Shown here one piece after another: positions 30,401 through 60,685 of a stretch of DNA of 64,000 bases. Numbering within the stretch: the first letter of the stretch is position 1; each line of letters starts with the position of its first letter. The DNA is taken from the NCBI RefSeq assembly GCF_029962835.1, contig NC_080586.1, positions 71,636,001 to 71,700,000 of the forward strand. Direction: 5' to 3'. The notes beneath the pieces were generated by a model. That model made no database searches and was not told where the DNA came from. It saw only the letters and a list, made by a program, of their open reading frames with translations. The position numbers were made by a program, and so were the translations under genes. Source of the stretch: Magnolia sinica (taxonomy: Eukaryota > Streptophyta > Magnoliopsida > Magnoliales > Magnoliaceae).

Positions 30401-30548
30401 CTTGTCCAGTTGTAATACCTTCATAGGTCTTGAAGATGTTTCGATCCTTTGATATGTAAATGGTTGCACCAGTATCTAGCCACCATCCACCATCGAATAT
30501 TACTGTGTTAGCTTCAGTAATCATTGTTACAAGTTGGTCTTCTATCAT
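27474..30548 (-). pseudogene. Copia pol: protease, integrase, reverse transcriptase, RNase H (broken)
   Basis: Going down the minus strand: an aspartic protease DTGAT (about 30460-30480); the GAG-pre-integrase LWHARLGHVN with CDVCAHSK zinc-binding residues; integrase catalytic contexts FIDDFTR, SDRGGEY and PQQNGLAERKN; the RT segment [20 protein letters not shown]; the RT active site YVDDM at 28396-28410; and RNase H with YNDASW and the ADPLTK-type tail. A 1-bp shift occurs in an A-run at about 29875. TGG to TGA stops appear after NL near 29540 and after RCK near 28837, and other breaks occur at about 28240-28450. The active-site motifs survive but no continuous product is possible. Confidence 0.92.
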
Positions 30549-30554
30549 GTTAGC

Positions 30555-31373
30555 CTAAGCTTTTAGTTGCTTCTTCCTGTGTCGACATTCCTTTATATGG
30601 TGTCCTGGCTTATTGCAGAAGTGACACTCGCCCTTTTTCTTTCCCTTTTTCTTAAACTCTGTATCTTTCTTTGGGGGAATAGATTTGGAGTTCTGAATTT
30701 TTGGCTTGTTATCTTCTACTATATTTGCTTTGGAATGATTTTCTGAAGCACTTTCTTTCTTGTCTCGGTTTCTGGACTCTTCTTCTATATGAAGATGTCG
30801 TTGAAGCCCTTCAAGATTGTACTTTCTTTCATCATGTTTCAATTTCTTTTTACAATCAAACCATGATGAGGGTAATTTTACAATTACTACACTAACTAGG
30901 CATTCTTCAGGAAGATCTATACCACAAATCTTCAATTCATCAACCAAGTTCTGTAGTTCGGTTACTTGGGAGAGAATTGATTGATCATTTTTAAACTTGA
31001 AGTGGACAAAATTGTTGATCAAAAATTTCTGAGTACTGATCTCTTCGGTTTTATATTTTTCATCTAATTTTGTCCACAGATCTTTAGCAGAGGATATTTT
31101 AAGATATCAGTACTCAGAAAGGGCGTTTAAGATATGACCTTTGCATAGAAAATCGTCCTCTTTCTTTTTCTTCCGTTCTAACTTCACTTATTCTGAGTCA
31201 TCGTCTTTTGGCTCGGTCAGAGAAGGCAGATCATCATCTAGGATGTAAGATAACTTAAGAGTTGTCAGAAAGAAAAGCATGTTCTGCTGTCATCTTGAGA
31301 AGAATTGACCGTCGAAACGATCTAGTCGTACAAAGTCTTGGTTCATAACTTGAATGGAATGAATTGTCTCCAT
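30555..31373 (-). pseudogene. Copia gag (broken)
   Basis: It starts at ATG 31373 just inside the LTR with METIHSIQ and the copia-typical LDRFDG..F sequence. A UBN2-type capsid region follows, then a lysine-rich stretch and one zinc knuckle, CHFCNKPGHHIKEC (CX2CX4HX4C). Stops interrupt the N-terminal part (about 31310, 31190 and 31100). A TAG at 30555-30557 separates gag from pol in the same frame, where related elements read through as one polyprotein. Confidence 0.88.
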
Positions 31374-40300: not shown

Positions 40301-40446
40301 CCGGTTCTGAAGTCGACGAGAGCCGTCCGTTCGGATTCATGGCAGCCCACGTTTGAGTTGCCATTGCAAGAAGAGAGGATTTGTAGCCATACAACCAGAT
40401 GCATGCAAGAAAGAGCTACTGATGCACACCATTTCTCAAAGGCCAT
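37311..40446 (-). pseudogene. EIX2-like LRR receptor-like protein, copy 1 (broken)
   Basis: Family role: cell-surface leucine-rich-repeat proteins without kinase that sense ligands at the plasma membrane with a partner kinase. From ATG 40446 there is a signal peptide, the LRRNT cap (GCHESERTALVDF...SSWDGHDCC), more than 20 LRRs of the LDLSxNxLxGxIP type, an island near AYGVYYNERIY, the NPDLCGPP end and an acidic stretch before the membrane helix. There is no kinase. Five lesions are seen relative to copy 2 or the expected frame. They are TGG to TGA at 40243-40245 right after CCR, an 11-bp deletion at about 39718-39724 between GATGTGA repeats, CAG to TAG at 39165-39167, a 1-bp deletion at about 38853, and a 1-bp insertion at about 37458 that scrambles the membrane segment. 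The ancestral stop is at 37311-37313. Intact length would be about 1045 residues, normal for the family. No introns are seen. Confidence 0.93.
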
Positions 40447-40548
40447 GGCTAATCCTAGTTTGGACACTAGAAAGACACCTTAAACTAGATATATAGAACC
40501 CAATTCTACGATCTTGAATCCAAATTCCATGCTTGATGAGGACAGGCA

Positions 40549-40559
40549 ATATATAAAAA
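40549..40559 (-). promoter_or_regulatory. Probable TATA box of RLP copy 1
   Basis: TTTTTATATAT on the minus strand, about 105 bp before the ATG at 40446. The surrounding sequence (ACAAACGGTGTATGTGAACT and onward) is conserved upstream of copy 2 at 48980-49060. A second TATATATC at about 40485 is too close to the ATG to be favoured. Confidence 0.4.
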
Positions 40560-40680
40560 GAGGCAAGTTCACGTACAAACGGTGTATGTGAACTCTTGCA
40601 TACAACACATCAGTTTACACTGAAATTTCTCATGTAGAACATCCAGAGGCAAAAATTAGACCAATTCATTATTAGGGGGG

Positions 40681-41314
40681 TGATGTAGACCTCGTCATAG
40701 ATACGCTGGTAGCATGGTTGGGCCAAAAGAAGATGAACCGTAAATTGATCATAACTTTCGATATGGGTATCGTTACGGTGTGCACAACCTATTAATCTTT
40801 TCTATCCATTTTGACAGGAAATGCACACTTTAAGCTCAAAAACTAATTTTTAGAAAAAAAAAAAATACTATTTTTAGTAATTTTTAAATTTTTAAATTTT
40901 TTTCTATTTTTAGAGTTTTAGATTTACTTCTCTTTTAGAAATAACTTGTAATTATGGTAAGGCTCTTCTATCAAAAGTTTATTTGAAAATTTTATTTTTA
41001 GAAATTAGCCTTTAGAAGAGTTTTATTAGAATTAGGATTGTTATTAAAGTTAGAATTTTGGTATTTTTGGTAATTATGAATTTTTATTTTTATTTTTTTT
41101 TGTGTAAGGAGACTGTTAGTCAATAATCAATTAAATTATGAATTTTATAGAATTTATTTATATTTTTCTTGCTTTTTTTCCTCCGGATTTGAGAAGTCTA
41201 CTTGAGAAATCCAAAGAAGCTCCACGGATTCGGAATAGTATTCCTCGAGAAAGACGGTGATAGTTATCCTCGAGAAAGACAGTGATCGACCTCATCACCA
41301 TCACCCCTACGTCA
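40681..41314 (+). repeat. Solo LTR inserted in the RLP copy 1 upstream region
   Basis: It starts TGATGTAGACC and ends CCCTACGTCA, an inverted TGATGTAG/CTACGTCA pair. Alignment with the upstream region of copy 2 (49080-49140) shows that the sequence between about 40680 and 41315 is extra here. The interior shares AATTAAATTATGAATTTTAT and the GAAGCTCCACGGATTCG segment with the LTR relics at 1-945 and 35820. No exact target duplication was found. Confidence 0.6.
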
Positions 41315-41870
41315 TTCAGTGGGCCACACCCTTATATTTATTGGGATCATCATCTGTCCATTGGTTTAAACGAAGCAGGCCTGCTTGATTAACAAAACAC
41401 CTTAGTTCACTTGAGAAATTTTCTCACCTCGAGTCTTAGCTGTTGGACCTGAGTTTTATTAATGATCCAGACCGTTTATTTGATGGGAATTTCCTCGACA
41501 GGGATGCCCAAAAAAAAAAAAAAACAAAAAAAAAAAAAAAAAAAAAACTTTGATTGTAAATTTAATCGTTTGATCATACCGAGGTTATGATGACCGTTCA
41601 TGTTCAAAGCAATATTTATCATCTAAGGCTCATCCAGCTACTTGGGTCGGTTACATGAATCTTTTTTGGACCGTTCCACTCTATCCAGACCATGACTTTA
41701 TCTAGGTCACTGGTCATCGAGTCTTTTTATATTACCTCAACTGGTAGCCTTTTCTCTGACCTTCACATTTTTATAATCAAAGGACAAGGACCAAAGACCC
41801 CTTGAGTCATCTTAATTTCCTGCGTTCCCACCTATTGAATACGTAAATTCTATCCTCAACTCCAGGACCT
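41315..41870. repeat. Duplicated RLP upstream flank (copy 1)
   Basis: GTGGGCCACACCCTTATATT, GTCCATTGGTTTAAACG, GAGAAATTTTCTCACCTCGA, TTTGATGGGAATTTCCT and GGTTACATGAATC run parallel to 49135-49530. The copy contains an A-rich tract (41510-41547). It shows that the tandem duplication covers at least 1 kb beyond the gene start. Confidence 0.75.
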
Positions 41871-41873
41871 GGT

Positions 41874-42424
41874 AATGTAGAATGGGTCACGAATTCGTTC
41901 CTAGCTATAATGGACTTAAAGAAGCAGAAGGATCGACCAACAACACCTGGGATGGTTCACCGGTTGACCACTTGGGTCGACAGGTCAAAATTCAGCTTGA
42001 ATTACCAGAAATTTCAAAATTCCCAGCGGACGTTTTTCTATATATTTCGACGAATTAATAAATCTGATCAACTGGTCGAAATCCAGTTCGACAAGTTGAC
42101 AGATTGGGTTGACAAGTCAATCTTCAGATTTCCAATTTTATTCTTCAGATTTTTTTGGTTGTTTCGACCGATCGGTTTAACCAGTCTATTACAGGACGAC
42201 GAGTGCAGGATTTTGTGCATTTTTTAGAATATGTTTCCTAAACTGATTAGGATTCTTTTAATTATGATTTTTAATGAGGCTAAACTCATTTTTCTTCATC
42301 ATTCAAACAATCAACTTTCTTAAAAATTTCTTTTTTTCTCTGGTGGATTTAAGAGTGCCTAATAAATTCAAAGTATTTATCAATCGATGAAGACAGTGAT
42401 CGATCTCATTATGTCCTTCCCTGC
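41874..42424 (+). repeat. LTR of a Ty3/gypsy-like relic
   Basis: It begins TAATGTAGAATGGGTC (a TGATGTAG-type start) and runs to just before the primer-binding site at 42431. It contains repeated GGTCGACAGGTC/GTTGACAAGTC words typical of this kind of LTR and the AATCAACTTTCTTAAAAATT leader part. The end CCCTGCGTGAAT is a worn CCCTGCATCAAT. Confidence 0.5.
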
Positions 42425-42430
42425 GTGAAT

Positions 42431-42444
42431 CGGTATCAAAGTGG
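42431..42444 (+). other. Worn primer-binding site (initiator tRNA-Met type)
   Basis: CGGTATCAAAGTGG against the usual TGGTATCAGAGCGG, directly after the LTR end. What follows (about 42460-42600) reads as a worn gag start with LTEAAFKKAQ before a stop. Confidence 0.55.
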
Positions 42445-42679
42445 GGCTTTTCACTCAACTTAATGGCTTTTAACAACAGGTCGGGCAACATTTCCATGCA
42501 CAATGTTCTAGGAAATTTTTCTTTAACAGAGGCAGCTTTCAAAAAGGCACAATGAGAGAATCAGCAAGTCATGCAAGGGCTACAGGTTTCCATCTATTAG
42601 ATGATGAAGGCCCTATGACAACTCCATATTTATGACGGTGATTTGCTCTCGATAGGCACTAAATTTCATAATCGCACTG

Positions 42680-44070
42680 ATTACAGGGTGATGCCGGCAC
42701 GACCTCCTCCTAGGCTACCATTGCCAGAGATGGTCCACCCGACGAAGCGTTTAGCTTGGAGTCCACGCTTTCCTGAATCGACTCCCCATGAAAAGCTCCC
42801 GACATAAAGATCCAATGGGAACCCTCTAATGACATGGCCTAAAAAGCTAAAAAGAAGAAGAACGATGGCGATGAAGGAGTACGACAAGGAGAACGTACTG
42901 GAAAATGCCGAAGTGACCGAACCCGGCGCAAAGAAAATAAATGGAGGGAGAGAATCGGCACCGCTTGGACTCTGCAGAAACAGCGAGGCGGGGAAATGGG
43001 TTATGCCCCTATTTATAAATATATGAAGGAAGGGCATTTAATGCCCATATTAAATGTCAGAACGTGAAGAGACGTCTCAGTGCACGTTGTCCTTCATGTG
43101 GCAGCTTGGGGTTTGTTGTCAGGCCTTACCATCGAGGTAGGGATGGTGTCCATCTACAAATCGTCTAAAGGCGAAGCAACACCACTCTGTGCACGCCTAT
43201 TCGTACGAATCGCTACCACGATATCTTCCTCGATCACAACAGCATACACCGTCCCTTTCCACTTTTGTATTAAATATCAAGCTGCAGTATGCCATCGCAT
43301 GAGATTGAGGTCGGGACTTAGGGTCAGTCCCCGAGGTCAGGATCTGGAGTTGGTCCCGAAGGTCGAGGTTAATACTCGGAGTCAAGGTCAGCATATTTGT
43401 TCATGAGTCCTATCCTCAATTTGCTAGGGCTCAGTCATAGAGTCACTTTGTCTGGCCCATCTCCTCTAGCTCAGGGTTCACTTCAACGATCTCATCCCCA
43501 TACATTAGGTCATCTCAGTTTTACCCATAACAGTTGCCCCCTACTTCTGAGCACTATGTACACAAGCTCAGGAAGTAAGTGGACTTGGACCAATGTATAA
43601 GCAAGAGACTTCAAACTTGTGAGAGGTCAACTCACTTCATGAGTACTACTGACCCCGGCTCCCAACTCGACCTCTAGGTAGGGGGTTAACCTCGACCTTG
43701 AAGGTTAGCCTTGGGCTAAGAACAGAAATATCCGGAGAAAATCTTGTACTATGTGTAAACGGGTTCTCTGCGAAGTTTTAGCCAAAGATCACACAAATGG
43801 AGGAATAATCAAAGTATTAGAGAGATATCCGAAAACAGAATCCAACCTCAATACGGGCCCTCCCAGCATATTTTATAGATCTATTTGGATAAGCAAGTTG
43901 TCAGAGCTAACTTATAAATACACCACTTTATTTAAGGAGAAGACATGCACAACTCCCCTATTTCTACTACACCAATTAAGAGTTTACATGCCTGACTTAG
44001 GCATTAGAGGGTCCTCTACCATCACTAGTGCCCCCTATGTCTTCTTTTTCTATTAAGTTAAAAATACCAT
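42680..44070. mobile_element. Composite Ty3/gypsy (Tat-like) debris
   Basis: On the minus strand a TATA box (TTATAAATAGGGGC at about 43010) precedes a leader and ATG (42834) opening a short Ser/Gly-rich frame. On the plus strand there are GTTGCCCCCTACTTCTGAGC, TTATAAATACACCAC and CCTGACTTAGGCATTAGAGG, phrases I associate with Tat/Ogre-type LTRs. The pieces point in different directions, so this is nested or rearranged debris rather than one element. No pol domain is present. Confidence 0.45.
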
Positions 44071-44128
44071 TAGGCTCGCCCGTATGCCGGGCAGGATCGA
44101 TCAGATTTGAACATCAGTGTGTATATAT

Positions 44129-44149
44129 ATGTGTGTGTGTGTGTGTGTG
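44129..44149. repeat. (GT)n microsatellite
   Basis: About ten GT units after a short AT run. Confidence 0.9.
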
Positions 44150-44277
44150 ATTGTGGCAATGGAACTAAACCACATGCATGTAACAAAGCTCATTTACTCC
44201 ACACGTGTGTTAAATTGGCACACATGTACGTAATCCAATTCATCCATTCCCGTGAGGATAATGTAAATGCCCTTAGG

Positions 44278-44301
44278 ATTATTATTATTATTATTATTAT
44301 T
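44278..44301. repeat. (ATT)n microsatellite
   Basis: Eight ATT units. Confidence 0.95.
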
Positions 44302-45470
44302 TTAATCTAATCTTTTTATTTATTTTTTTCTTTTAGAAAAACTCCATTCACAGAGGATTCTGATTGATGGATGGACCCAACCACGCATGGCAGGGATCTC
44401 TACTAATGTGATCCAATCTCAACCAAACAGGTGGATTACCAAAGGCAATCCCCACCCTACGTTTAACCATTTTAAATGGGCCCATTATAATCGTAGGGTC
44501 ATTTAAAAATGCAAAATGCTTAAATCGTACTTTTTTTTGTATGTTGTTGACGAAACATGTCAAGATCAGGAATTCCTACAATTGGTTTTGGTTTTATACT
44601 GAGAAATGAGTCTAAGGTTAGAAATCGTATAACTAGTTTTATATTGAGAAATGTTCACACGCATTGTTTTGCAACGGTTTTCATTCCCACAAGCATGTCA
44701 CTATTTTGGGATATCTGAACCATACAAAAGGTGGGCTGCATCGTACAGTGGGCTACTCTGTCGAAATCAACGGACAGCCGAGGGTTTGAATCAATGTAGG
44801 GGTGTGGCTCATGTTATGAGTGGATTAGGTCAATTTTCTTTTTAGATACCTTTATATTGTGGCCCACCTTTTGCAACTCTCGAATGTGCTGCAAAAGGAT
44901 GTGTTGGCTGAAACAAAACGGCTGTATGTAAAAGTCCACATACATAAACATTGTATGTAACCTATCTCTTTTAGATTTTTTTTAATTTAAAAAAAAGAGA
45001 AGAAAACCAATAGTCCATGCTCAACATACGGGAGGATATTCAAGGATGGCACATGTGAGTTCTGAACCACTCATGTAGATCACCATATAATGTCTATCAT
45101 ACCCCAAAATCACACCTACCTTTGAAAATTCGAAATTTGTACCGTCGAACCTATAACTCACTTATAGGTAAGTGAAATCCTTTCATGAACTAATAGTTAT
45201 GCTTCATCAAACTATCAAATTGATGGACATTTATTGGACGGTTAAGAAGAAATGTATCCACTCATCTGATGTAGAGCGGGTTGCGGACAGTTACATGGCC
45301 AAGATGGATGAGACTTTGATGGCATTTACAATCTCTCCATAGCATAAAAAAACACACCAAAATATTTCAGTGAAAAAATATAAATTTTTCAAAATTTTCA
45401 TATGACATCGAGCATCTGTTGATGTAGTCCATGGATGACATCAACAAACACCATTATTTACGTATTTGAT
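44302..45470. other. No gene seen
   Basis: AT-rich spacer between the two RLP blocks. It holds the dispersed repeat copy at 45258-45310 (inverted partner of 960-1016) and otherwise only short meaningless frames. Confidence 0.5.
45258..45310 (+). repeat. Dispersed repeat fragment (partner of 960-1016)
   Basis: GATGTAGAGCGGGTTGCGGA followed by CAGTTACATGGCCAAGATGG, matching the minus strand of 960-1016 with few changes. Confidence 0.6.
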
Positions 45471-45573
45471 ACATCAACAACACAACATTTCTCAAATAAG
45501 AAACTGCAATCCTGATATTTTCATTCCATTTAAATTATTTCCAAACAAACTACATTCTATGAATTTCAATTCC

Positions 45574-48164
45574 TCAAACACTCGAACCCCTCACCTTCAC
45601 ACGTATAACTATCCAAATCGCAATAAGTTTCATTACCATTTTCTGCACATAGCCAAACAGAGCATCCTCCCAACTCTTCTTAAGAAACAGAACAACATGA
45701 ACTCCCAAGAACCCCAATCCAAATCCCAATCCAACACTAACATAATACAATGGAATTTCTGATCCATCCCCTCCATCGGTCGGCTCAGATCTTCCCGGCG
45801 GCATCCATCCTTCACATTCTCTTAAGATAGGTGGACCACAAAGATCCGGATTTCCATTATACACAGATGCTTTGAATGTCGAGAATTGATTACCCGACGG
45901 AATCCTCCCAGAGAAGTTGTTGCTAGAAAAATTCACATCATTCAAGAAACTCATCGACACCATGCTTGAAGGAATTAGACCCGAAAGCTGATTCCTGGAG
46001 ACATCGAAAGTCATCAATTCCTGTAAATTTCCAATCCGATCGGGAATGTGCCCACCCAAACGGTTGTTAGACAAGTTCAAGATCAGCATCCCTGATAGAT
46101 TCATCAAAGAATCCGGTATTTCTCCGAAAGATCCATGCTTGTCATGAGCGAAAGAGTCTTGTTATACTCGAACATCTTATCTTGCATCGACACAGACAAT
46201 CTCTCGATGAATGTAATGATGTAAATTCTCTCGTTGTAGTAAATCCCATAAGCTAGTAAGATGTTCCTGTTCTGGTGGGTACGCATGGCCGTGAGATTTC
46301 CAAGGCTTGATGGAATGGGACCTGTGAGATGATTGTTTGCAAGATCAAGGACTTGTAATGAAGTTAGGTTCGATATTTGTGAGGGGATTTCACCAGTGAA
46401 TGTATTAGACCTTAGTCGGAGAATTCGGAGAGACAAGAAGCTTTCTCCAATCCAAGTAGAGATGCGACCTGAGAATTTGTTCTCTCCGAGGTCGAGAGTT
46501 TCTAATCTGGACAAATTCTTCATCGATGAAGGGAGTTCTTCTGAGAGATTATTGTAATTCAGATGCACTGTTTGGAGATGGGTGAGAAGGCCTATGGATT
46601 CTGGGATGGGTCCGGAGAGATGATTTCCGCTCAGATCGAGCGCTTCCATTTGCGTGCAACCGCCCAAGGTTGGTGGAATGCTGCCATGTAGATTGTTTCT
46701 GGAAAGATCAAGAACTCTCAGATACATCATTTCTCCGATGGCTGATGGAATCGTGCCGTCTATCTGATTACCTGAAACCAAGAGCAGAGAAGCGATCTGC
46801 ATTACGTGGTTAATGTTCTCAGGGATCGGCCCGACGAGGCTGTTGTTGGAGAGATTGAGCTGCGATACTTTCATTGGAAGAGGAAAGGGGCCTTGAATGC
46901 TGTTCGAGCTTAAATCGACCGTCGCCCATCCTGAAAACGATATCTGGCTTGGAAGCTGGCCATGGATGTAGTTGTTGGAGAGATTCAAGTGTGAGAGATG
47001 GCTAGCAATGTCCCAAAACCAGTTTGGGATTGTATCTGAGATAGCCGCGTTCGAGAGGTCTAGATGCTGAGTCAGGTTCTGTTTCGAAAGCCAGGAAGGG
47101 AACCGAGGCCCTAAACGGCACGAACCCAAATCAATGAATTCGAGTCGAAAAGGAGGAACCCAGGTGGGGCTGATATTGAAAATCAATGAATTGGAAGATA
47201 ACATCAATGTCTTCAATTCAAATAGCTTCTCGAAGTGGGATTCTGATACAATGCCGGTTAACGTGTTCGATGAAATGTCTAAGTATCTCAACTTAGAGAG
47301 CTGCCCGAATGTCGTCGGGAGGGTCCCATTCAAACTGTTTCTATAGAGAGAGATCATATTCAAGAATGGCAATCTTCCAAGTGATTCGAGAATGGAGCCA
47401 GTCATCAAGCAGTCCTGAAGATCGAGCCATTCGAGCCTTTTGAGCTGACCGAACCAAGCAGGCATCGAGCCATGGATCGGATTCCCACCGAGAAGCAAGA
47501 AAGCAAGGTTTGCGAATGGAGTTTGCAAAATACAACCTGCTGTTTCTAACGAATCAGGTATCTGCTCGATCATGTTCGCATACAAATTCAATTTTCTTAA
47601 ACCACAGAGATTTCCAATGGTTTTTGGGATTCTGCCTTTGATGCTATTGTATCCTAGATTAAGTTCAACAAGGGAAGTAAGATTGCCAATGGAAATGGGG
47701 ATTTCTCCATGGAATCTGTTTTCGGAAAGATCCATGATCTTGATCGCCATCCAACTCCCTTCGAGCAGAACTGACAAATCAGCAGTCAGGTTGTAATTCG
47801 TCCCGAGATTGATTACTTGCAAGTGATGAAGCTCGGCGATCGCCATCGGAATGGAACCGTGCAGATCACAACCGTTGAGTTCCAGAGATACAAGATTACT
47901 AAGATTAGCAATCCACGGCGGGAATTCCGATCCGAAGAAGTTGTTTTGGAGATCCAAGACGCGGAGAGATGTGAAATTGATGTGAGAAAGAGATGTTGGA
48001 ATGTCATTAAGGCCGCAGAGCGGCAACCGGAGCTTGATTAGAGAAGGGATCATGTTCATCACATGAACCCAATCACGGCCCACCATCGAAAGATCCAGAC
48101 CCTTCATCTCAAACACTTGAAGAGAAGAAAGGTTGCTGGCCCACCAGAGGCTGTCCACACTCAA
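45574..48164 (-). pseudogene. EIX2-like LRR receptor-like protein, copy 2 (5'-truncated, frameshifted)
   Basis: It is a close tandem paralogue of copy 1. It has a long open LRR stretch from the SVDSLWWASNLSSLQVFEMK repeat through the island (AYGIYYNERIYI), a frameshift, then the final LRRs, NPDLCGPPILREC, an acidic segment, an intact hydrophobic helix (YYVSVGLGFGLGFLGVHVVL) and a basic KKSWEDALFG tail. Two defects kill it. A 16-bp deletion at the 46125/46126 junction shifts the frame inside the LRR before LSGMLILNLSNN. The start codon, signal peptide, LRRNT cap and first LRRs are missing beyond about 48164. The open frame continues to 48281 but only through non-homologous sequence without a matching ATG. 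The stop is at 45574-45576. Outside these defects the copy is cleaner than copy 1. Confidence 0.93.
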
Positions 48165-48240
48165 ACGTGGGCTGGATATGGAGGGGTGGCGATAGCTATG
48201 GACATTAGAAGGACGACCTGAAACTGGATATATAGATGGT
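48165..48240. other. Rearranged 5' junction of RLP copy 2
   Basis: A 15-bp piece of the LRRNT coding region (CAGCCCACGTTTGAG at about 40345-40359 on the plus strand of copy 1) reappears here inverted as CTCAAACGTGGGCTG at about 48161-48175. Beyond it, 48200-48235 (GGACATTAGAAGGACGACCT...TATATAGA) matches the copy 1 leader at about 40461-40496 in normal orientation. So roughly 0.5 kb of coding sequence was lost with a small inversion at the junction. Confidence 0.6.
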
Positions 48241-48784
48241 GTGCCATGTTGTCTGCGTGTGAGGTAATCTACATCGTTCAAATCATTGGCCCACTTACGC
48301 TGATCTAGTAAATTTGATTTTTGGGTGTGTTTATAATTCTTGTATTCATAATTTAGACGGTCTGGATCATTGTCATGTAGTCATGTATGGCATGTGTACG
48401 GTGGATGACACGGTTCAAAAAAAAGGGTGAAACCGGACTTCGTACTCTGGCTCATGGAAAACGATCATCCACGGATGGATTTGAATACTGTATTGTGTGC
48501 TCGTTGTAAGAAGTTGGTGTAAGTGCGGAAGTTGGTTCAATGATCTAGACCGTTGATTTGATGGACGTCACCACGGATGACACGAACCATCCAGACCATT
48601 CGTTTATTGGGCCCCACCATAGATAGACCATGCCTCAAAAATCTCTCAATATAACAAACCCAACCTATCATTTCTGACCTCAAAATAAAATATTCAAGAA
48701 GAGATAGCAACCGTCCCCATTCCACCGTGAAATGGTCGTCCAATATTATTGGCCGATCTTATCACATTTGAGATTTTGGGATAT

Positions 48785-51744: not shown

Positions 51745-52368
51745 AGCCGATGTGTACCACACACCAGCTATATAGCTGCTGTAGGTACGTGTCGTGCGAG
51801 GCAGAGCACCGACGCTCCTCGAGTTCCGAGTTGTGCTAACGGCTCAAAGAAGATCAAAGTTACTTGGTCTCCACAGTAATACATTTATTATATCTACACT
51901 CTTCATCTATTTTTAGAGATCATATTAGAGTATTATCCAAAAAAATAAATCATATCTAAAGATCATTTGAACCACGTCACAAATGGCAGAGAAGATAATG
52001 ATTTTCATCGTTAAACAATTCAAAGGGCCCACCATAACATTTATTTTCCATCAAATCTGTTCATAAGGTTATAAAGACATGAATTAAGAGCAAAAACAAA
52101 TTATTTCATATTGATCTAAAACATCCGTGTCCCAAAAAGGGTTTCAATGGTAGACATATAATCTCTTACTGTTTTTGTAGTTTGGTCCTCTTGATAGTTA
52201 GATCTGTCTTATTTTTCTTCTCGAGACTTAAGACGAGCTCGCAAAATGGATGGACTATTTGGATATAATACATACCTTATGATCAGATCCACGGAACTTG
52301 TTGACGTCAATACAGTAGCTATATAGCCAGTGTGAGGTACACCGGCCAATCCGCTTCCCGGGACAACC
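51745..52368 (-). mobile_element. Foldback MITE, family A (inverted relative to 5285)
   Basis: Between GTGTACCACACACCAGCTATATAGC-type sequence on the left (written here in part: CAGCTATATAGC) and GCTATATAGCCAGTGTGAGG on the right lies the reverse complement of the 5285-5870 copy. It includes AAAGATCATTTGAACCACGT, CCATAACATTTATTTTCCAT and GGATATAATACATACC. Confidence 0.75.
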
Positions 52369-52379
52369 ATGGTGGGAAG

Positions 52380-52793
52380 GAACGCGGATTGCGTACTATC
52401 CCTGCCCGTCCCTAGCTCCAAACGGGCAGTTCTATGGGCGGGCCCACCGTAATGTGTCTGTGCATCCAAATCGTCAATCCCTTTTCTCAGATTATTTTAA
52501 GGCATGAACACAAAAATGAGGCAGATCCAACGATCAAGTGGACCACACCAAATAATAATCTTGGTTGCATTAAAATGCACAAAGCATTAAATGTCAGTTG
52601 CATTAAATGCAAGAGTCATCTGTGGTGTGGTCCATTTGATCATTGGATCTGCCTCATTTTTGTTCCGATGCCTTAAAATAATATGAGAAAAGGGATAGAC
52701 GGTTTGGATGTACAGATACATCAAGGTGGGCCCACCCATAGAACTGCCTATTCGAAGCTAGGGACAAGTGGGGGTAGTACGCAATCTGCATCC
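52380..52793. mobile_element. 414-bp MULE-like MITE with 9-bp target duplication (family C ends)
   Basis: It is flanked by GGTGGGAAG at 52371-52379 and 52794-52802. The terminal inverted repeats are GAACGCGGATTGCGTACTAT and its partner AGTACGCAATCTGCATCC. A 9-bp duplication and G-starting ends fit Mutator-like elements. The interior is a shortened core-family foldback (GCGGGCCCACCGTAATGTGT...CATCAAGGTGGGCCCACCC). It sits between two family A elements. Confidence 0.85.
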
Positions 52794-52799
52794 GGTGGG

Positions 52800-52936
52800 A
52801 AGGAAAGCGGATTGGCTGGTGTAGCACACACCGGCTATATAGCTTGTGTATTGACGTCAGCAAGTTAGGTAGGTCTTATCATGAGGTATGTGTTATATCC
52901 AAACCGTCCATATAACTATAAAGTGGACTGCACTAC
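52800..52936 (+). mobile_element. Family A MITE, left part (interrupted)
   Basis: AAAGCGGATTGGCTGGTGTA, CCGGCTATATAGC, ATGTGTTATATCCAAACCG and AAGTGGACTGCACTAC follow the family A left arm. The arm stops exactly at the 52937 element and resumes at 60421. Confidence 0.85.
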
Positions 52937-53716
52937 TGTAACATCTCGGAAAAATCCGTACAAAGACTCGAGTATCACCTCAGGCAGAAATTGTTAAGGA
53001 CCGAATCCTTTAGAAATTAGACGAAAATTAATTAAGTATTAAACTGAATTGATCGGCGAATTACCTCGAATCACTTTCTATACGTACTGCAAGACTCAAA
53101 ACCCATAGAATCGCTAACTTAACATTACCTAAAAACAAAGGATCAATCTCAAAACCCAGTTGCTCTCGGGAGCACACTGAAACTCTTTATCAGACCTAGA
53201 CCGCGCGTCGAAAGTCTGATTATTGCGAAACTATACGGTTATGACCGCCTTATTGGGCTTGACAACCATCGCGGAAATCAAGTCCTAATAGTATTAAGAA
53301 ACGCACAACTTGAGCTCGGAGTGAAGTGTGTGAGAAACGCGAATATCTTTAGAAAATGAACTCAAACTTCAGTAAATTGGGCCGTTCGCTTGCAGTCCAA
53401 ATTTAAGGTATCAGACCGTCAGATTATGACCCAACTACACCCTTGGATCAGGAAAATTTTCCAACACATGTCAGTGTACTTATGGCCCTGATCGAGTGAC
53501 GATGACCGTTGAACTGAAACTGGTCCTTCGCGGTCAATCTACAAACCCGATCAGGCCGAAAACTTAACCTGACATAGATCCATTATCAGGGAACTTTCTC
53601 TGGACCGTATGCAGAAAATGGGCTTCCAGATGAGCTTTGTTAGCCTGAATCAGCCACCCTTTGACTATATCCTAAGTATACCATAGCCTTGGGACCATTG
53701 ACATCAGTTATTGGCC

Positions 53717-53726
53717 TATATAAGGG
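53717..53726 (+). promoter_or_regulatory. TATA box of the 7.5-kb element
   Basis: CTATATAAGG, about 30 bp before CTCTCTCATTCC and a leader with GAGAGA tracts, followed about 200 bp later by a donor-like GGTAAGAAA. The layout resembles a Pol II promoter with a non-coding first exon. Confidence 0.45.
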
Positions 53727-54929
53727 CCTTAATCCATCCCTCTCTCATTCCATACGAATTTTAAAACCCTAGGAGAGAGAAGAGAGAAAAAGAGAAGGAA
53801 AAAGTGAGGAGAAGAGAGAGAGAGAGTGAGAGATAATTGCTGGGATTCGTTCCTGCCGCTCCACGTGCCGAATCATCCTACCTGCATCGCTATACCGGTG
53901 ATTTCGACTCTATTTTTTGGTAAGAAACCATAACCCTAATCTGTTTCACGTATCCAAGTAGGAGAATCGACGAAATAGCTAACCTATTTCATGATTCAGG
54001 TAGCCGTTGTGCCGTAGACGAATGTATAGTGTTCGAACTGAGTTCGATACGAGTTTACAGACGGAAGGTGCGGACTATAAATATTTAGGTTATGGTTTTC
54101 AAGGCTTTCAATGTCAGTAATGATTTATGACTGACTTGATTGTTATCACATATGCTTAGATGCGATGTTTTTCACGTATTACATATATATATGGACTATG
54201 TTGAAATTAATGCATTCCATGTGTTTGTTGAAATGTTTGTATAAATATGAAATTATGATTTGTGCTTGCCATGGTTGTTGCTTAAGAATACATGATTGTT
54301 GTTTGTGTGGCAACTCCCTTGTGAAAGGATTTGCTATAATATATGTTTTAACTAATTTATTACATGTATGTGATATGTGTGGTCTAAGTGTTTGATGAAA
54401 TACCTAAATGAGAAAATGCTTGCTGAAATGTATTTAAGTAAGGTGTTGAGATATGATTCTCAATCCCCTTATCTATAGTTACAATTTCTTTCATATAACC
54501 TATCTTATTACTATGTGCCTTATGGATGAAATACTTATGTATAATAACATGTGCACTATATGTTTGTTGAAATGCTCAAATGAGATTTATATTTAGAATG
54601 GTTATCACATGTTGTCTTGGACTATCACATGTGAATGCTATTAGTTTGAAATGTGATTGAGGCTACGATGTAGTTCAGGCAATCGGTAATGATTCTCGAA
54701 TCAGTGGCCGAGGTCGTTCCACCACACAAGACACGTTCGATGAATCCGAGTCGTATGCTATTTGTCGACAGTGGTTAGGCCACGCGGAGTGCTTACGTGC
54801 TCCATATCGATTAAGTCAATGTGCGCTCGTATCAATCAAGCTTATCAAGTAACCCGATTGACCTAATGTATGTTCATCATGTATGGACGCTACTGCTTGA
54901 ATCTAAGGTACCAACCTACCAGTAAAAAG

Positions 54930-55200
54930 CCCGTTTAACCTTGGTACTATGATCCGCTAAGACTCATGAGCCAAGCATGGTGGTATGGGACAATGTGGTC
55001 GAGCTGTCGGCTTACGCTGGGGTGACGAGCCTCTCCGTAGTGACCAATGAGCAAACCAAACTCGTAAGCCGAATACGGTGGTATGGGATACTGTATTCAA
55101 GTTGTCGACCTACGATCAGGTGACGAGCCTCTCGTAGTGACCTCGAGTATACACTAGGACTACGCTAAGGTGACGAGCCTCTCCATGACTAGGATTGACG
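54930..55200 (+). repeat. Internal repeat module of the 7.5-kb element
   Basis: GGTGACGAGCCTCTCCGTAG occurs three times with slight variation (about 55017, 55099 and 55170). Two GTGGTATGGGA phrases and GAGCTGTCGGCTTACGC/AGTTGTCGACCTACGA alternate with them. The same phrases occur inverted in the nested element at about 56128-56200. Confidence 0.75.
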
Positions 55201-55287
55201 ACCCTAGATAGATCATCGTTTGGGTCAATGATATAAAGGGAGGTGCCTTAGCTTCCCAATCATGCTGTATGAATAGGTCTAATTAAG

Positions 55288-58200
55288 TGTAACGCCCCGA
55301 TTTTCAAGACCCGAGTATATGACCCGTGTCCCAAAAACCCGAGTGTTAGCTTTAAAGGATGGTCAAATTCGAGTGTATATTTTTTTTTCCTTCATCAGAG
55401 TAAGCAAATGAGCGTAGTGTGGACAAATCGACATAAAGAAAAATTTCATTATCATTCAAATTTACAAGAAGCTGCCCATAATGACTTACACAAACCAATG
55501 TCCCTGAATTTAACAAGTACAAGATTTACATGATTTAATACATGAAGAATAATAGAAAGTATATAAATATAAGACGCAAGATCACGCAGCTCCTCCAAGT
55601 AAATACAGTCATGCATCCCTGGCAATTATACCATGCTCCTCATCAAGTCTGAACATATATATCACTAAAGCCACCTGTACTACCTGTACGGTTGTATATT
55701 TGATGGATGAGTGGCCAACTCAGTGTGAATTCCCCTCAAGATTACACACCGCCGCATTAGGTAAGAAATAGTATAAAACATCTAGACAACCAAAACAGAG
55801 TAAATGCAGTCTTATTAGGTGCATGGATGCATGAATGCAATCATCGACCCGGGTAAATCATCCGGACGGTTGGAGCCCCAGGAAAAACATCCAGACAGGT
55901 AATGGGGTCGTCACCCAAAGATGTGAGTGGTCATCAGCGCAACACGCAGCGTAATCGTATGGGCATGAGTCATCCAAGTCATCATCATAAATCGATCGGC
56001 TGGTCATTAGCGCAACTCGCAGCGTAATCGCATGGACATAATGATCCAAGCCGTCGTAATATGCCATGCATGCATGATTAGCCAAGTCATTATTAGTCCA
56101 TTTACAACCAACCAATTTAGATAAGCTCAAAGGTCACTACGGGGAGCACATGGCCCAGCGTAGGCCGACAGCTCGGGCATAGTATCCCATTACCACCATC
56201 CCCGACTCATAAGGCTACCATCTTAGGATGTTTAATGGAAACTCGTCGACTAGTGGCCAATCATATTATAGTATATGGGGCTTACCATTGCATGGTTACA
56301 CAGTATAAAACATTGAAACCATATAGGAAAAATACCACAACAAAGCCACATAGGGCGATATCAAACAAGCCACATAGGGCAATTATCAAAATAGGCCTCA
56401 TAGGGCGAGTATCAAAACCATGCGATAAAACACCATCCTTGAAAACTATTGGACTCAACAACCCTGGATGGTAGGCCCACATTAATGATCCATTTAGACC
56501 ACCACTCAAGAACCACAGTCGAAGGTCCATTTTAATCACAACCAGTCGGGTTACATCCCAAGTATGGGTGTACATTTATAGGTGGGGGTTTCCCACTAAT
56601 ATACCAGTTTAAAGTCCATAAGCAATACACAAATAATCCACAGGCATGAATAAATATACAGGATGAACATTAAGCAGGTAATATAGCAATTCAATTTTCA
56701 CCAGCTAACACATGTGATTATAAGAGAGATATATCAATTATAATTTTAATAAAAACTATAACTTAAGCTAATGAGAAGATAGAAAGCTCAAGAGGAAGAA
56801 TCATCACCTTATACTTTAAATCGCCTACCGGTGTCGCTAAGTGCTTACTCCCTTAGAATTGAATCCTACCACAGATCATGAGCTTATATCATTAGATCCA
56901 AGTTCCATGCACTACCTGGGGTTTGTATTTCTTTTAGGGTTTTAATATGGAATTAGGGCTTCATCCTGGAATTTAGGTTTAGGCTAGATCTTTAAGGTTG
57001 AACTCTAGTGGTGTGTAATTATTTATAATGTTAATTTAATAGTTATAAAATCCTTACTAACATTAGTGTCATAGTTAATATTAGTTAATAATAATCATGA
57101 TGATAATTAATATTATGATATAATATCTATGATAAGACAATGCATTAACATTTAATAATGGTATCATTTTAATTTCTTGTATATAATAACTATCATTAGA
57201 ATAGATAATTTACTAATAGTCATGTATCCTAAAATTTAACAATCCTATTAATAATGGAAATGGTAACAATGTTAATTTAATAATTAGAAAATAATTGTTA
57301 ACCATAGTGTTACAATTAATATTAGTTAATGTAGCAAAATAATCATTATGGTAACACTAACCAAAATTAATATTTAAGAATAATAAATAGGATAATGATA
57401 TTCAATAATTGTAATTTGTTTACAATAACCAGTTTAGCATAATGACTTACTAATGGCTAATCTTTGCTAATATTAATAATCCCAATGGCAACAAATGGTA
57501 ATAGTACGTCGAAACATAACTAGAATGGGGGAAAATGTTGACTCACCCATGATGATTCGGTTCGAACCGAGTTGACTCGGCTCAACACAACCATCACCCC
57601 TACATTCTCTCTCCTTCTTCTTCTCTTATCCTTTTTCATTTCTGCTTCTAGGAAGTCCAGAGGTGGCTGGACTCGACTCAAGGATGGCCCAACTCAGCAC
57701 AGGTGAGTCGAGTCGACTCGCCAGCTACTCAACTCACTCACCCCTACTCCTTCTCTCCCCTTTTCTCTGTCTTTCCTTTCTCTCTTTCCTCTTGCTCTCT
57801 TCCTCACAAATATCTTCTCTCCTTGCTGCTGGAGATACCTGGCAATGGTCGGCGAGCTGGCCTGACTCAGCCTGGTCGAGCTGAGTCGACACAGCACCTG
57901 CATAAAAAAAAAAGGCAGCGAGTCAGACTTGACTCGGTTCAAGCTGATGCACATGACAACCTCTCATTCCTTCTCCTCTGTTTCTCTTCTCTTTACTTTT
58001 CTACCTTCTACTCTCATACTTTTCCTCGTTCTTCATCTGCTACAGATCCAACGACGCTAACGGCCCTGCCTAATTCGCACACCACAACTGGGTCGGGTTG
58101 GTGCAACAGCCACCCCTCGTTCTCCCTTCTCTCTCTTAATTTTTCCATTTCTCTTCTTTCTTCTTTCTTTCTTCTTTTCCTTTCATCTGCTGCAGGTTCA

Positions 58201-59346
58201 GCGGAGTCACTGGGCCGCCGCATTCGATCCGAATCGGCTCGGTTTGGTGTCCCCTTAAACGAGGAAGAAGCTCCGCCATTAATGGCAGATTCTCTCCCTC
58301 AGCTCCTATCTTCAATCTGACAGCGTGGAACGATTTCTAGGGATGTATTAGAGCTTGTAGAACGAAGGTTTTGAAGCTTCGCCTTCGTTTGACTGGTGGG
58401 TTCGAAGGATGAAGGAGACGACTATTTTTCCTCCAACAGCCGCAAGCAATGGAAGGAGGGCGCTGCAGTTAGCTTTATTTCCCTTTCCCAGGGTTTCCCT
58501 AAAAGATCCCAGGCCGTTGGATCTGTAACAGATGGCCTGGATTGAAAACCGGATGGCAGCAGCCCCCAACGTCTAGCAAAACCAAAACCGACAGCGGTTT
58601 TAGCTTCCTGTGGGCAGAAACTCTCTCCCACGCGGAGACCCATCGGACGGCTGGGATTTTACCTTAATGAACGACCTAGATCAGCAGAAGACCCCTCACA
58701 TGGATCGCTGATGTGGAGTGGAAACAGTTTCCATTTTTGGAAATGTTGTGTTTCCGGGTCCTTGTTGCGCCAGCTCACGAGTGCACGTAGGTGCACCTAG
58801 CAGGTGGAGGTTTTAGGGTTTTGGTCAGGGCTGAGGTTCGCACACGATGGACGGTTTGGATCTTTCGTCTGGGTAGTGTGGGTGGACCACGGATCAACCA
58901 AAACGGACGCTCGTCCGTCGGCTGTCTAAGGCAAGGAGAGAGAAATCTCCTTCTACTTAAGGAAATAACGGGTCAGCCCACTGCTGACCGAGCTGGGGTG
59001 CTCGGTACACAGCGAGTGCTCGTCAATTGTGCACATGCACCATCAGGGCGGGGCCCACAGTCGTGTTTGGATGAAATCCACTCCATTCATTAGGTTTCAC
59101 AGGTCCAATTAGGACCTTAGGCTAAAGATGAGGTGGATCCAAATCCTAGGTGGGCCATACCAAGTGATTCTCGGCCTTAAGCATGGATCCTCATTGATCT
59201 GCTAGTCGGATAATCTTGAATTTTGAAGTCAACGGCTAAAAGAGTCCTAGGGACTACTTAAGCTAGAATTTAGTGGTTGTTCTATGAATCATATGGCCTA
59301 ATACACACTTATAGCATGAGCTATTTATTTTCAATGCTTTTAATTA

Positions 59347-59397
<51 letters not shown>

Positions 59398-59671
59398 CAC
59401 TTATATATTTTGTAATATCACAGGTTTTTATCATGTACATTGTACGAATGTTAGCAAGCAAAGATTAATGTATATATATCATTTGTACATTTATTTGTAG
59501 GGTTACATGTGTTATGTTTTAATTTCATATAAGTTGTTAAATTGTTTGGAATATATTATTCATTGTAACCCTTTCTAGCGTATTTTATTTTTAGGTATTA
59601 TAGATTTTGTAATTTATATTAATTTAGAGTACACGGTAACACCCGAGTACTAAAAAGTACGGGGTGTTACA
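55288..59671 (-). mobile_element. 4.4-kb nested relative, TGTAACGCCCC...GGGGTGTTACA, opposite orientation
   Basis: The ends are TGTAACGCCCCGATTTTC and GTACGGGGTGTTACA. The flanks TTAAG (55283-55287) and TCAAG (59672-59676) are a 5-bp duplication with one change. Read on the minus strand it repeats the architecture of its host: a GA-rich leader, the CTGTCGGCCTACGCTGGG...CCGTAGTGACC module (about 56200-56130), CACTGAGTTGGCCACTCATC (about 55705-55725), an AACCGTACAG acceptor-like site, then a short 3' part with GATGAGGAGC. Between 57540 and 58210 a CT-rich unit with GACTCG words recurs about four times. The 205-codon plus-strand frame at 57703-58320 is low-complexity within these units. No transposition protein is recognisable. 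Confidence 0.8.
59356..59397. repeat. (ATT)n microsatellite
   Basis: About fourteen ATT units near the end of the nested element. Confidence 0.95.
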
Positions 59672-60420
59672 TCAAGAACTTGGTTAATCACGTACATACA
59701 TCGTATTGCATGTGCCTTTGGCATTGGAGTTGAGCACAGCGGGAGTGTTGCATGCTGCGATCGTGAAATGATGTCGCAGAGGGAGTGCAGGCAAGGGCAT
59801 ACATCATTAATATATATCATCCTTGCATTAACCAGAGTACTTAGGAATGTTTGTTGTATTGCTTTATCATTACTGCTTGACTGAATTGATAACATGTTAA
59901 CCTTTGCTTTATAACTCCACTGAGTTGATCACTCACTCCCACTCTGGGATGGTGTTTTAAAACACCAACCAAACTTTGTTGTAGTTTCAGGTGATGTCGA
60001 GGCTTACGAGGTGGAGCCTTACTTCTACGACAATGAGGAGGAGTTCTCCTACCTGCAACTCTTTGGCGGATCTATGTAGATCTGGAGTTGCGTCACCAGG
60101 GCTACAGGGATATGGATTAGATGACATCACACTTCATTATTTTGTATATTTTAGAATTAAACATGTAATTATTTAACCCGGTATCATGTTCATACTCCGG
60201 GGACTAATAATCACTTATACGCTCTATATATTTATCATAGTCTTCCACTTGCGTAATTTAACTGTCTCTAGACTATAATATGTTGATTTAGTATAATCTC
60301 ATTCATGTTTAATGCACTAATACGGACAACATTTAATCATCATTATCTATGTTGCATAAGTGATGTGTTAGAACTCGGGAGTTGAGCGTTTGCTCGACCC
60401 CCGATTTTCAGGACGTTACA

Positions 60421-60685
60421 ACTACAAAAGAAGTGGGGGATTGAACATCTACTATTGAAACCCTTTAAGGGGTCACCGAAGTCTTGGAACAATATAAAAT
60501 TTGTTTTTCCTTTTCATACAAGTCTTTGTGACCTTATGAAAAGATTGGATGGAAAATAAACATTATGGTGGGCTCTACGAACTTTTTAATGGTGAAAATC
60601 ATTATCCACGCTGCTATATGTGGTGTGGTCTAGTTGATCTTTAGATATGATTTTTTTTTTTTGAATAATGCTCTAAAATGATCTC
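60421..60685 (+). mobile_element. Family A MITE, right part (interrupted, truncated)
   Basis: It continues from 52936 with ACTACAAAAGAAGTGGGGGA, ACTATTGAAACCC and GGTGTGGTCTAGTTGATC, then stops abruptly at AAAATGATCTC and passes into unrelated sequence. Confidence 0.85.

Follow-up and report, generated by a model that had tools for sequence, protein, structure and literature searches.

The Tekay (= Del) clade of plant retrotransposons includes Del, Bagy-1, Legolas, Peabody and Retrosat-2 (PMC6317226). In maize and sorghum the commonest U3 att of Del is TGTAACACCC, and Del LTRs range from 1,143 to 4,831 bp (PMC4029996). Tekay elements of sunflower (group 2), maize and rice carry an additional 5' ORF, which encodes an accessory protein of unknown function; this ORF opens the internal region on its 5' side, and the available part of its description mentions no LTR exon (PMC11728184). 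In the CRM group A chromoviruses the coding sequence of the polyprotein continues into the LTR, so that the 3' LTR holds coding sequence for their integrase CR motif (PMC3059260). According to a December 2025 review, plant LTR retrotransposons are generally devoid of introns (PMC12786077). Ogre, EVADE and BARE1 are spliced, and their introns, in the available text of the sources, are described in the gag-pol region and not in the LTR (PMC12786077, PMC6317226). Searches of open-access full text brought up no description, for Tekay, of a coding exon located behind an acceptor inside the LTR, and such a description may exist in print.

The window analysed here is a stretch of 64,000 nucleotides from Magnolia sinica (NC_080586.1, positions 71,636,001 to 71,700,000 of the forward strand). 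It very probably contains a solo LTR of a Ty3/gypsy chromovirus of the Tekay/Del lineage (the outer LTR), which is built like a transcription unit with an acidic exon and holds a younger, related solo LTR on the opposite strand (the inner LTR). The LTR identity is well shown for the outer element, and less fully for the inner one. The features are as follows, a slash marking a splice boundary.

52932..52936, no strand: outer 5' target-site duplication ACTAC, identical to the 3' copy
52937..60420, plus strand: outer LTR (Tekay/Del type), with relatives in the same genome that adjoin a PBS, a PPT and an integrase-chromodomain remnant
52937..52946, plus strand: outer U3 terminus TGTAACATCT, two positions of which differ from the Del U3 att (PMC4029996)
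53717..53728, plus strand: TATA box TATATAAGGGCC, TATATAA in nine of ten aligned copies
53771..53832, plus strand: GA-rich leader (approximate limits), from direct reading and aligned copies
53920..53921, plus strand: donor-like GT (TTTTTTG/GTAAGAAACC), GTAAG kept in seven of ten aligned copies
53998..53999, plus strand: possible first acceptor AG (TTTCATGATTCAG) with CTAAC upstream, AG in seven of ten aligned copies
54067..54068, plus strand: possible second donor GACGGAAG/GTGCGGACTAT
54962..55184, plus strand: shared module of the outer LTR, tandem units CTGTCGGC..TACGC and GTGACGAGCCTCTCC, from sequence comparison
55283..55287, no strand: inner left flank TTAAG, a duplication with one mismatch
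55288..59671, minus strand: inner LTR, 4,384 bp, of a related Tekay/Del-type family, from att ends, module, box, genome relatives and PBS
55288..55299, minus strand: inner U5 terminus CGGGGCGTTACA, a type A U5 att with GGG at -8 to -10 (PMC4029996)
55705..55725, minus strand: inner box, diverged, CACTGAGTTGGCCACTCATCC, read directly
56125..56216, minus strand: module copy of the inner LTR, from sequence comparison
59660..59671, minus strand: inner U3 terminus TGTAACACCCCG, which starts with the exact Del U3 att (PMC4029996)
59672..59676, no strand: inner right flank TCAAG, agreeing with TTAAG at four of five bases
59918..59968, plus strand: box CACTGAGTTGATCACTCACTCC + CACTCTGGGATGGTGTTTTAAAACACCAA, with a perfect palindrome at 59951-59966
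59989..59990, plus strand: acceptor-like AG, 22 nt past the box, at exactly +22 in 36 of 41 copies
59991..60079, plus strand: conserved coding 3' exon, phase 1, from a test by codon position, the lengths of indels and the place of the stop in 41 copies
60411..60420, plus strand: outer U5 terminus GGACGTTACA, read directly
60421..60425, no strand: outer 3' target-site duplication ACTAC, read directly

Once the inserted inner LTR and its flank are subtracted, the outer LTR measures 3,095 bp (~3.1 kb). As far as the available text of the source goes, Tekay/Del LTRs combine a U3 att TGTAACACCC with a U5 att ending in GTTACA, and the outer LTR shows this combination, with differences from the commonest att. 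Its relatives start with TGTAACGTCTC or TGTAACATCTC and end, for example, with CAGGGCGTTACA. In the genome of the same plant (1.84 Gb), outer-family copies are bordered by a PPT or by a PBS for tRNA-Met, and an integrase-chromodomain remnant precedes one of them. Contig C1 has two copies on the same strand, 13.6 kb apart: the first ends with GACGTTACA + AG + TTGGTATCAGAGC, and the second begins after the remnant and AAGGGGGGTAGAT. The remnant, which belongs to a single element and is decayed, is 52% identical over 346 aa (E 4e-122) to the integrase of locus L144 (P0001), which matches the Pfam domains SH3_Tf2-1, Integrase_H2C2 and rve, Chromo being below the cut-off.

Twelve further outer-family copies were fetched from the best-scoring 39, and both ends are visible in ten of them (copy counts are numbers of sequences, not of independent events). 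Four of these ten are solo LTRs with exact 5-bp duplications (CTTGA, ATAGA, TCTCC, ATCTC), three come after a PPT, one before a PBS, one between a PPT and a PBS, and the last (L221) lacks matching flanks. Over all the outer-family copies examined, the PBS adjoins L217, L224 and L227, and the PPT L218, L222, L224, L225 and L228; the sequence AGTTGGTATCAGAGC stands directly after the LTR ends CAGGACGTTACA (L217), CAGGGAGTTACA (L224) and TAGGGTGTTACA (L227). A novel non-LTR element is refuted for the outer family by the PBS, PPT and integrase beside its copies. The lineage was assigned from the LTR ends, the PBS and the similarity of the integrase, not from an RT tree.

The inner LTR has a length inside the published Del range, and its ends show the att combination given above (PMC4029996). 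In the genome, 39 relatives were scored, and the terminus is reached by 38 of the 40 rows, the window copy being counted. The inner LTR appears to be the younger insertion, because it is 95–96% identical to its relatives, compared to 88–91% for the outer LTR. The module common to the two LTRs, proposed in an earlier note on this DNA, is confirmed by a 94 bp alignment between opposite strands, in which 76.6% of the positions are identical (E ~1e-10 in a search of the entire window, 2e-13 pairwise). The PBS directly follows the LTR in both inner-family copies checked and is the same as in the outer family. An exact, longer pattern joining the inner LTR end to the PBS gave no match, and neither a PPT nor an integrase is present in the inner-family stretch that was fetched, which itself lacks the LTR start. 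The inner family is possibly non-autonomous, because the ends of its two same-strand LTR pairs are only 6.5 and 7.6 kb apart.

The earlier note described mobile elements nested in opposite orientations, the outer one with an ACTAC duplication and short inverted termini, the inner one with T(T/C)AAG flanks. The direct reading of the termini (TGTAACATCT...GGACGTTACA and TGTAACACCCCG / CGGGGCGTTACA) and flanks agrees with this, as do the strands (plus for the outer, minus for the inner) and the genome relatives of both. The lack of transposase, gag and pol is also borne out, none of the eight stop-to-stop ORFs of at least 90 aa reaching a Pfam cut-off (one sub-threshold match has an E value of 0.087). 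The note took the elements for a mobile family for which it recognised no published name, a reading that it said clear LTRs or a known superfamily consensus covering both would contradict. Each element is an LTR of a known lineage (from PBS, PPT and integrase for the outer one; from the PBS, with less evidence, for the inner one), and a new kind of element without LTRs is therefore abandoned. The term "non-autonomous" is trivially correct for a solo LTR, and may apply to the inner family.

The outer LTR resembles Tekay/Del in its termini and length, 5-bp duplication, PBS, PPT, integrase with a chromodomain-like C-terminus and occurrence as solo LTRs; it differs from Tekay, as described in the available texts, by the conserved acceptor-like site and the acidic coding exon. 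Its layout is like that of a transcription unit: a TATA box, a GA-rich leader and a donor come first, then the module in repeated units, and finally a box that hardly varies, an acceptor and the short exon coding for the acidic peptide, with its stop. Loci L271-L274 likewise have TATA-type boxes, each with a GA-rich run downstream, and AG/GTAAG or GG/GTAAG at the place corresponding to the donor. The aligned outer copies that do not keep GTAAG have GTATG (2/10) or have lost the GT (1/10, L226). The TATA box, purine-rich leader and donor of the earlier note are present, the donor being at 53919/53920 and not at 53930. The sequence suggests one long intron. Two introns are also possible, one from the GT at 53920 to the AG at 53999 and the other from the donor-like site at 54067/54068, the counterpart of which is AG/GTGCGGACTAT or close to it in L271, L273 and L274 (GTGCAGACTAT) and AAG/GTATGGACTAT in L272.

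The CACTGAGTTG box was said to precede an acceptor in both elements; it does so in the outer LTR (59918-59939), and the inner one has it in diverged form (55705-55725, minus strand). A genome search with the 29-bp box CACTCTGGGAYGGTRTTTTAAAACACCAA gave 3,149 exact matches, and one with the reversed control none; the abundance of the box is therefore beyond chance. The 41 box-bearing copies used below are 40 sampled from the listed places among these matches, all on contig C1, and the window copy; the sampled copies being anchored on the exact box, the conservation of the box among them is by construction.

With the preceding G, the exon reads GDVEAYEVEPYFYDNEEEFSYLQLFGGSM, and its stop codon is at 60077-60079. 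In the 41 copies, the 29 codons after the AG show a third-position excess which none of 20,000 permutations reaches, and indels within them are mostly of 3 bases; the following 90 bases have neither property. The 22 nt before the AG vary in the opposite way (0.35, 0.27 and 0.13 by position), TAG and CAG being kept. The pN/pS ratio is 0.52 in the 25 of 41 copies with open frames, and 0.55 over 230 divergent pairs. Phase 1 is open for at least 26 codons in 28 of the 41 copies, compared to 15 for phase 0, and 15 copies have no stop at codon 26-32. In a five-copy scan of the LTR, the exon gave the strongest codon phase of the 53 windows scored out of 69 (the coverage of the other 16 was too low), and no other scored window looks coding. 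This shows that the acidic tail is genuine, and that it remains protein-coding, under constraint, in related repeats of the same genome. The acidic coding end which the earlier note attributed to the family holds for the outer family; the exon of the inner copy in the window has no acidic peptide, and none was seen in the LTRs L109 and L144 from other plants.

Exon 1 was ruled out as a coding start for want of a conserved ATG: an in-phase ATG is found in three of 14 sequences (L222, L225 and L273, where it reads MPRRG), at different places. Since no other scored window looks coding either, the acidic exon may be the 3' LTR's contribution to a protein, as its C-terminal exon, with the partner exon in the internal region; the splicing into it is predicted from the sequence. 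The module was rejected as a second coding exon, 34 of its units from the fetched copies, some poorly matched, having codon phases of 0.22/0.22/0.24 and no periodicity. A PPT donor in the pol frame has, by eye, the phase that suits the outer family, and was rejected as a general solution; in L271 the sequence leading up to the PPT is not the same. A genome search for an intron-less junction of exon 1 with the acidic exon gave no match with the sharper pattern. A broader pattern, which also fits ordinary acceptors, matched 113 places, and the matches listed resemble ordinary or mutated acceptors, three of them, which begin with TTTTT or TTTTC, only putatively. The search for an exon 1–exon 2 junction gave one place, which could equally be an ordinary acceptor of the L274 type.

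Outside the host genome, the module pattern matched 38 loci in viral contigs and the PBS pattern 33. Among these loci, chosen for holding a 15-base pattern, blastn gave only two 25-bp matches (L013 and L025), and the integrase query had no match in the viral contigs. Plant contaminant contigs in bacterial assemblies gave at least 119 matching stretches. The loci L078, L098, L109, L125, L144, L169 and L179, with L192 and L193 from a further search, show a PBS and att-like ends, and L109 and L144 have, by eye, the box-plus-acceptor layout. The acidic peptide was seen in none of these loci. The L144 element is probably a Tekay, judging from its att ends, PBS and integrase features.

Each solo LTR would have been left when a full element recombined between its LTRs. 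In the full element, the internal region would encode most of a protein, and the 3' LTR copy of the acidic exon its C-terminus. The MMTV sag and HIV nef products are likewise coded in the 3' LTR and reached by splicing; their frames lie in U3 and have their own start codons, unlike the acidic exon. As in CRM group A, coding sequence would lie within the 3' LTR, but here it starts only after ~2.7 kb of LTR sequence, close to the 3' end and behind an acceptor-like site (PMC3059260). We tentatively propose, as a possibility somewhat short of probable, that transcripts running into the 3' LTR are spliced to its acceptor from an internal donor, within gag, pol or the additional 5' ORF, which would place the acidic tail on an accessory or alternative Gag or Pol product. 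The near-invariant palindromic box would act in splicing or 3'-end control, and solo LTRs would scatter thousands of acceptor-plus-terminal-exon cassettes. It could be speculated that the additional 5' ORF of Tekay elements is the main part to which the acidic exon is joined (PMC11728184).

The absence of coding domains within the unit, the short inverted termini with their 5-bp duplication and the spacing of the inner pairs, which would leave no room for a full gag-pol between two LTRs of 4.4 kb, could all suggest a novel non-autonomous family, mobilised in trans, in which the unit is the entire element. This is very improbable, given that an element with a PBS, an integrase-chromodomain remnant and a PPT has outer sequence at each end, that further outer copies stand directly after a PPT or before a PBS, and that inner copies precede a PBS. 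The acidic frame might instead belong to an unspliced ORF (or uORF) running through the box, which has, by eye, no stop in this frame downstream of the TGA of CACTGAG, and the negative junction searches agree with this. We consider it unlikely: the window copy has no ATG in that frame, and the codon-position excess is seen after the AG, the preceding 22 nt varying oppositely.

Joining exon 1 to the acidic exon within one LTR, to give a short LTR-only peptide or a leader, would account for the donor kept after the TATA box in most copies and for the in-phase ATG of L273. There is little probability in it, since only three of the 14 sequences have an ATG in phase downstream of their last stop, the scored exon 1 windows lack a codon signal and the search for an intron-less genomic copy found none. 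The peptide could also be left over from an ancestral coding sequence and have no role today, as the copies without a stop at the expected codons, typical of decay, would suggest; this is quite unlikely, because the pN/pS values and the mostly 3-base indels need constraint during the divergence of the families.

Solo LTRs of this kind are commonplace, but a long plant LTR that contains a conserved protein-coding exon is unusual. Should the long LTRs of Tekay indeed house a transcription unit whose terminal exon is coding, part of the length of these LTRs would gain a function, an abundant lineage of plant retrotransposons would have an extra protein product, and thousands of solo LTRs would be potential exon donors.

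The two elements nested in the window both have TGTAAC...GTTACA ends. All of the sequence features that the earlier note had listed (duplication, termini, module, box, TATA box, donor, acceptor and acidic frame) were found again in the window:

52937-60420, outer element, with the ACTAC duplication on both sides (direct sequence reading)
55288-59671, inner element, on the strand opposite to the outer one, with TTAAG/TCAAG flanks
53717, TATA box of the outer element
53920, donor GT of the outer element
59990, end of the acceptor AG of the outer element, followed by a short acidic frame

The elements have in common a module of 94 bp (76.6% identity), and the CACTGAGTTG box is present in the window as described. 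At 54962-55184 and in the fetched copies the module forms a variable array of tandem units of about 98 bp; it also occurs in the inner LTR, and its units contain, by eye, short self-complementary stretches. A Pfam scan of eight ORFs of at least 90 aa gave no family at its cut-off.

The earlier note took the elements for gene-like, non-autonomous ones, but the primer binding site (PBS) found beside relatives of both, and the polypurine tract (PPT) and integrase found beside relatives of the outer one, show that they are best read as ordinary solo LTRs, the evidence being fuller for the outer than for the inner. The genome searched comprises 1,838,573,281 bases and contains the window. Searched with the 744-base 3' end of the outer element, it gave 9,706 first-look candidates, of which the best 40 were scored: these are the window itself and 39 copies at 88-91% identity, and all reach the terminus within two bases. 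Two copies on the contig C1, on the same strand and separated by 13.6 kb, seem to enclose one element: the first is followed by AG-TTGGTATCAGAGC (the tRNA-Met PBS) and the second is preceded by a PPT and an integrase-chromodomain remnant with stops, which is 52% identical over 346 aa (E 4e-122) to L144, a plant-type sequence from a bacterial assembly. Twelve of the 39 scored relatives were fetched, and both ends were seen in ten (the start was not found in L219 and L230). Four of the ten are solo LTRs between exact 5-bp duplications; another three are 3' LTRs behind a PPT, and one is a 5' LTR ahead of a PBS. Another (L224, G000:C11:57194168-57197458) has a PPT on one side and a PBS on the other, in the manner of a tandem LTR-internal-LTR-internal array, and the flanks of the last, L221, do not match. 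These surroundings identify the outer unit as an LTR, of which the window holds a solo copy.

The inner family gave 6,230 first-look candidates; the window and 39 copies at 95-96% identity make up the 40 full rows, of which 38 extend to the terminus, and the 41st row is a short match (82%). The two copies checked past their end, each with a same-strand partner, both read GTTACA-AG-TTGGTATCAGAGC. Against this, an exact, longer pattern of LTR end plus PBS had no match in the genome search, and the one stretch taken at a predicted 3' LTR start did not contain that start. In the two pairs the ends of the partners lie just 6.5 and 7.6 kb from each other, and the elements may therefore be short and non-autonomous. 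The inner LTR would have inserted later than the outer one, which agrees with the higher identity of its relatives.

According to a survey of 2,432 Del (Tekay) elements, the U3 end is most often TGTAACACCC in maize and sorghum, the last bases of the U5 end are conserved (type A having GGG at -8 to -10), and LTRs measure 1,143-4,831 bp (PMC4029996). The inner element (4,384 bp) fits these ends exactly, TGTAACACCCCG / CGGGGCGTTACA, and the outer one (3,095 bp minus the insert) fits them with differences, TGTAACATCT / GGACGTTACA. Membership in Tekay/Del is judged from the LTR ends, the PBS and, for the outer family, integrase similarity. In L144 the full series is present: an integrase with an SH3 domain of the Tf2-1 type and a chromodomain below the cut-off, followed by a stop, the PPT, the TGTAACATCCG LTR, the PBS and gag. 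L144, L078, L109, L098, L125, L169 and L179 carry plant-type LTR retrotransposon sequence on contigs filed as bacterial genomes (Labilibacter sediminis, Solirubrobacter sp., Modestobacter lapidis, Blastococcus endophyticus, Geminicoccus harenae), which therefore look like contamination.

Elsewhere in the window, a large inverted repeat that immediately precedes the outer LTR (52302-52859; 180-nt arms, 84% complementary, 46-nt spacer, nested in 58-nt arms, 88% complementary, with TGACGTCA at both outer ends) is, on its sequence, a MITE-like foldback element. The minus strand of 37417-48281 holds several mutually similar, apparently broken up leucine-rich-repeat ORFs of the receptor-like-protein type (Pfam LRR_1 and LRR_8 in the two scanned). 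Ty1/copia-type polyprotein fragments lie at 27764-31022, minus strand, where 29847-30548 matched Pol_BBD and gag_pre-integrs and 27767-28234 had no Pfam match.

Two diverged LTR copies in 200 kb of C1 have the same box and acceptor, and an acidic frame as well. An exact search of the genome matched the 29-base box CACTCTGGGAYGGTRTTTTAAAACACCAA at 3,149 places and its reversed control at none; the box includes a perfect 16-bp palindrome, GGTGTTTTAAAACACC (window 59951-59966). Forty box places on C1 (469 bases each) were analysed together with the window copy. An AG lies exactly 22 bases past the box in 36 of the 41 copies; it is displaced by a one-base indel in L247 and L259 and altered in L254, L260 and L264.

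The exon was read with one G placed ahead of it (phase 1), and the adjoining stretch of the same copies served as control. In this phase a stop falls at codons 26-32 in 26 of the 41 copies, compared to 1 and 0 in the other phases, and the frame is open for at least 26 codons in 28 copies (15 in phase 0, 2 in phase 2); as the copies are related, they do not count as independent events. At the three codon positions the nucleotide diversity is 0.332, 0.305 and 0.519, which none of 20,000 within-codon permutations reaches, compared to 0.437, 0.418 and 0.410 in the next 90 bases (reached by 13,106 of 20,000). Counted in majority columns, 16 of the 22 gaps in the exon have a length divisible by three, compared to 5 of 63 downstream, and pN/pS is 0.52 among the 25 open copies and 0.55 in 230 pairs below 75% identity. 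The encoded peptides are GDVEAYEVEPYFYDNEEEFSYLQLFGGSM (window copy), GDTDFVEPDSASLEEEDEFSYFQLMDGSPSA (L238), GEAELDELIEVSMDEVEELPYFQTFGGSF (L237) and DYGKAYVTEPDFFDEEEFSYVQLSGESM (L253). The tiny acidic coding end proposed in the earlier note is thus upheld and, in this genome, backed by a signature of selection.

Upstream, TATATAA is kept in 9 of 10 aligned outer-family copies and the donor GTAAG in 7 (GTATG in two, lost in one). L271-L274 have a TATA box, a GA-rich run and, 200-240 bases on, an AG|GTAAG or GG|GTAAG donor. A second pair of candidate splice sites follows the first donor; L271-L273 also have in common, about 120-160 nt past that donor, a stretch resembling AGGTGCGGACTATTATCCTTAGGTGGCCTAGCACCAAT, which may be a regulatory element or a second donor and whose first part is present in L274.

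A codon-phase scan of five aligned LTR copies scored 53 of 69 windows (16 were left out for low coverage); the strongest phase is that of the two windows at the acidic exon (spread 0.24 and 0.16, all other scored windows at most 0.12). Exon 1 has no conserved start codon (an in-phase ATG in 3 of 14 sequences), and no codon periodicity was found in the module units tested. The partner of the acidic exon therefore probably lies outside the LTR, although it may fall in one of the 16 unscored windows. Alternatively, an unspliced frame could run through the box, but this frame has no start codon and the bases ahead of the AG vary in the reverse codon pattern. Processed exon junctions were not found in genome searches, which is weak evidence because a spliced template would be expected to regenerate an LTR only rarely.

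Ogre, EVADE and BARE1 are known to have introns (PMC12786077, PMC6317226), and Tekay to have additional 5' ORFs (PMC11728184, in whose text a search for "acidic" and similar terms gave nothing). In the open-access literature searched, no account of Tekay LTRs with a coding exon reached by splicing was found. A precedent for coding sequence within a 3' LTR is CRM group A (PMC3059260), where the coding region runs on into the LTR and specifies the CR motif. In LTRs that carry the acidic exon, the 3' copy would serve as a terminal coding exon, and its acidic end would be joined by splicing to sequence that probably lies outside the LTR.
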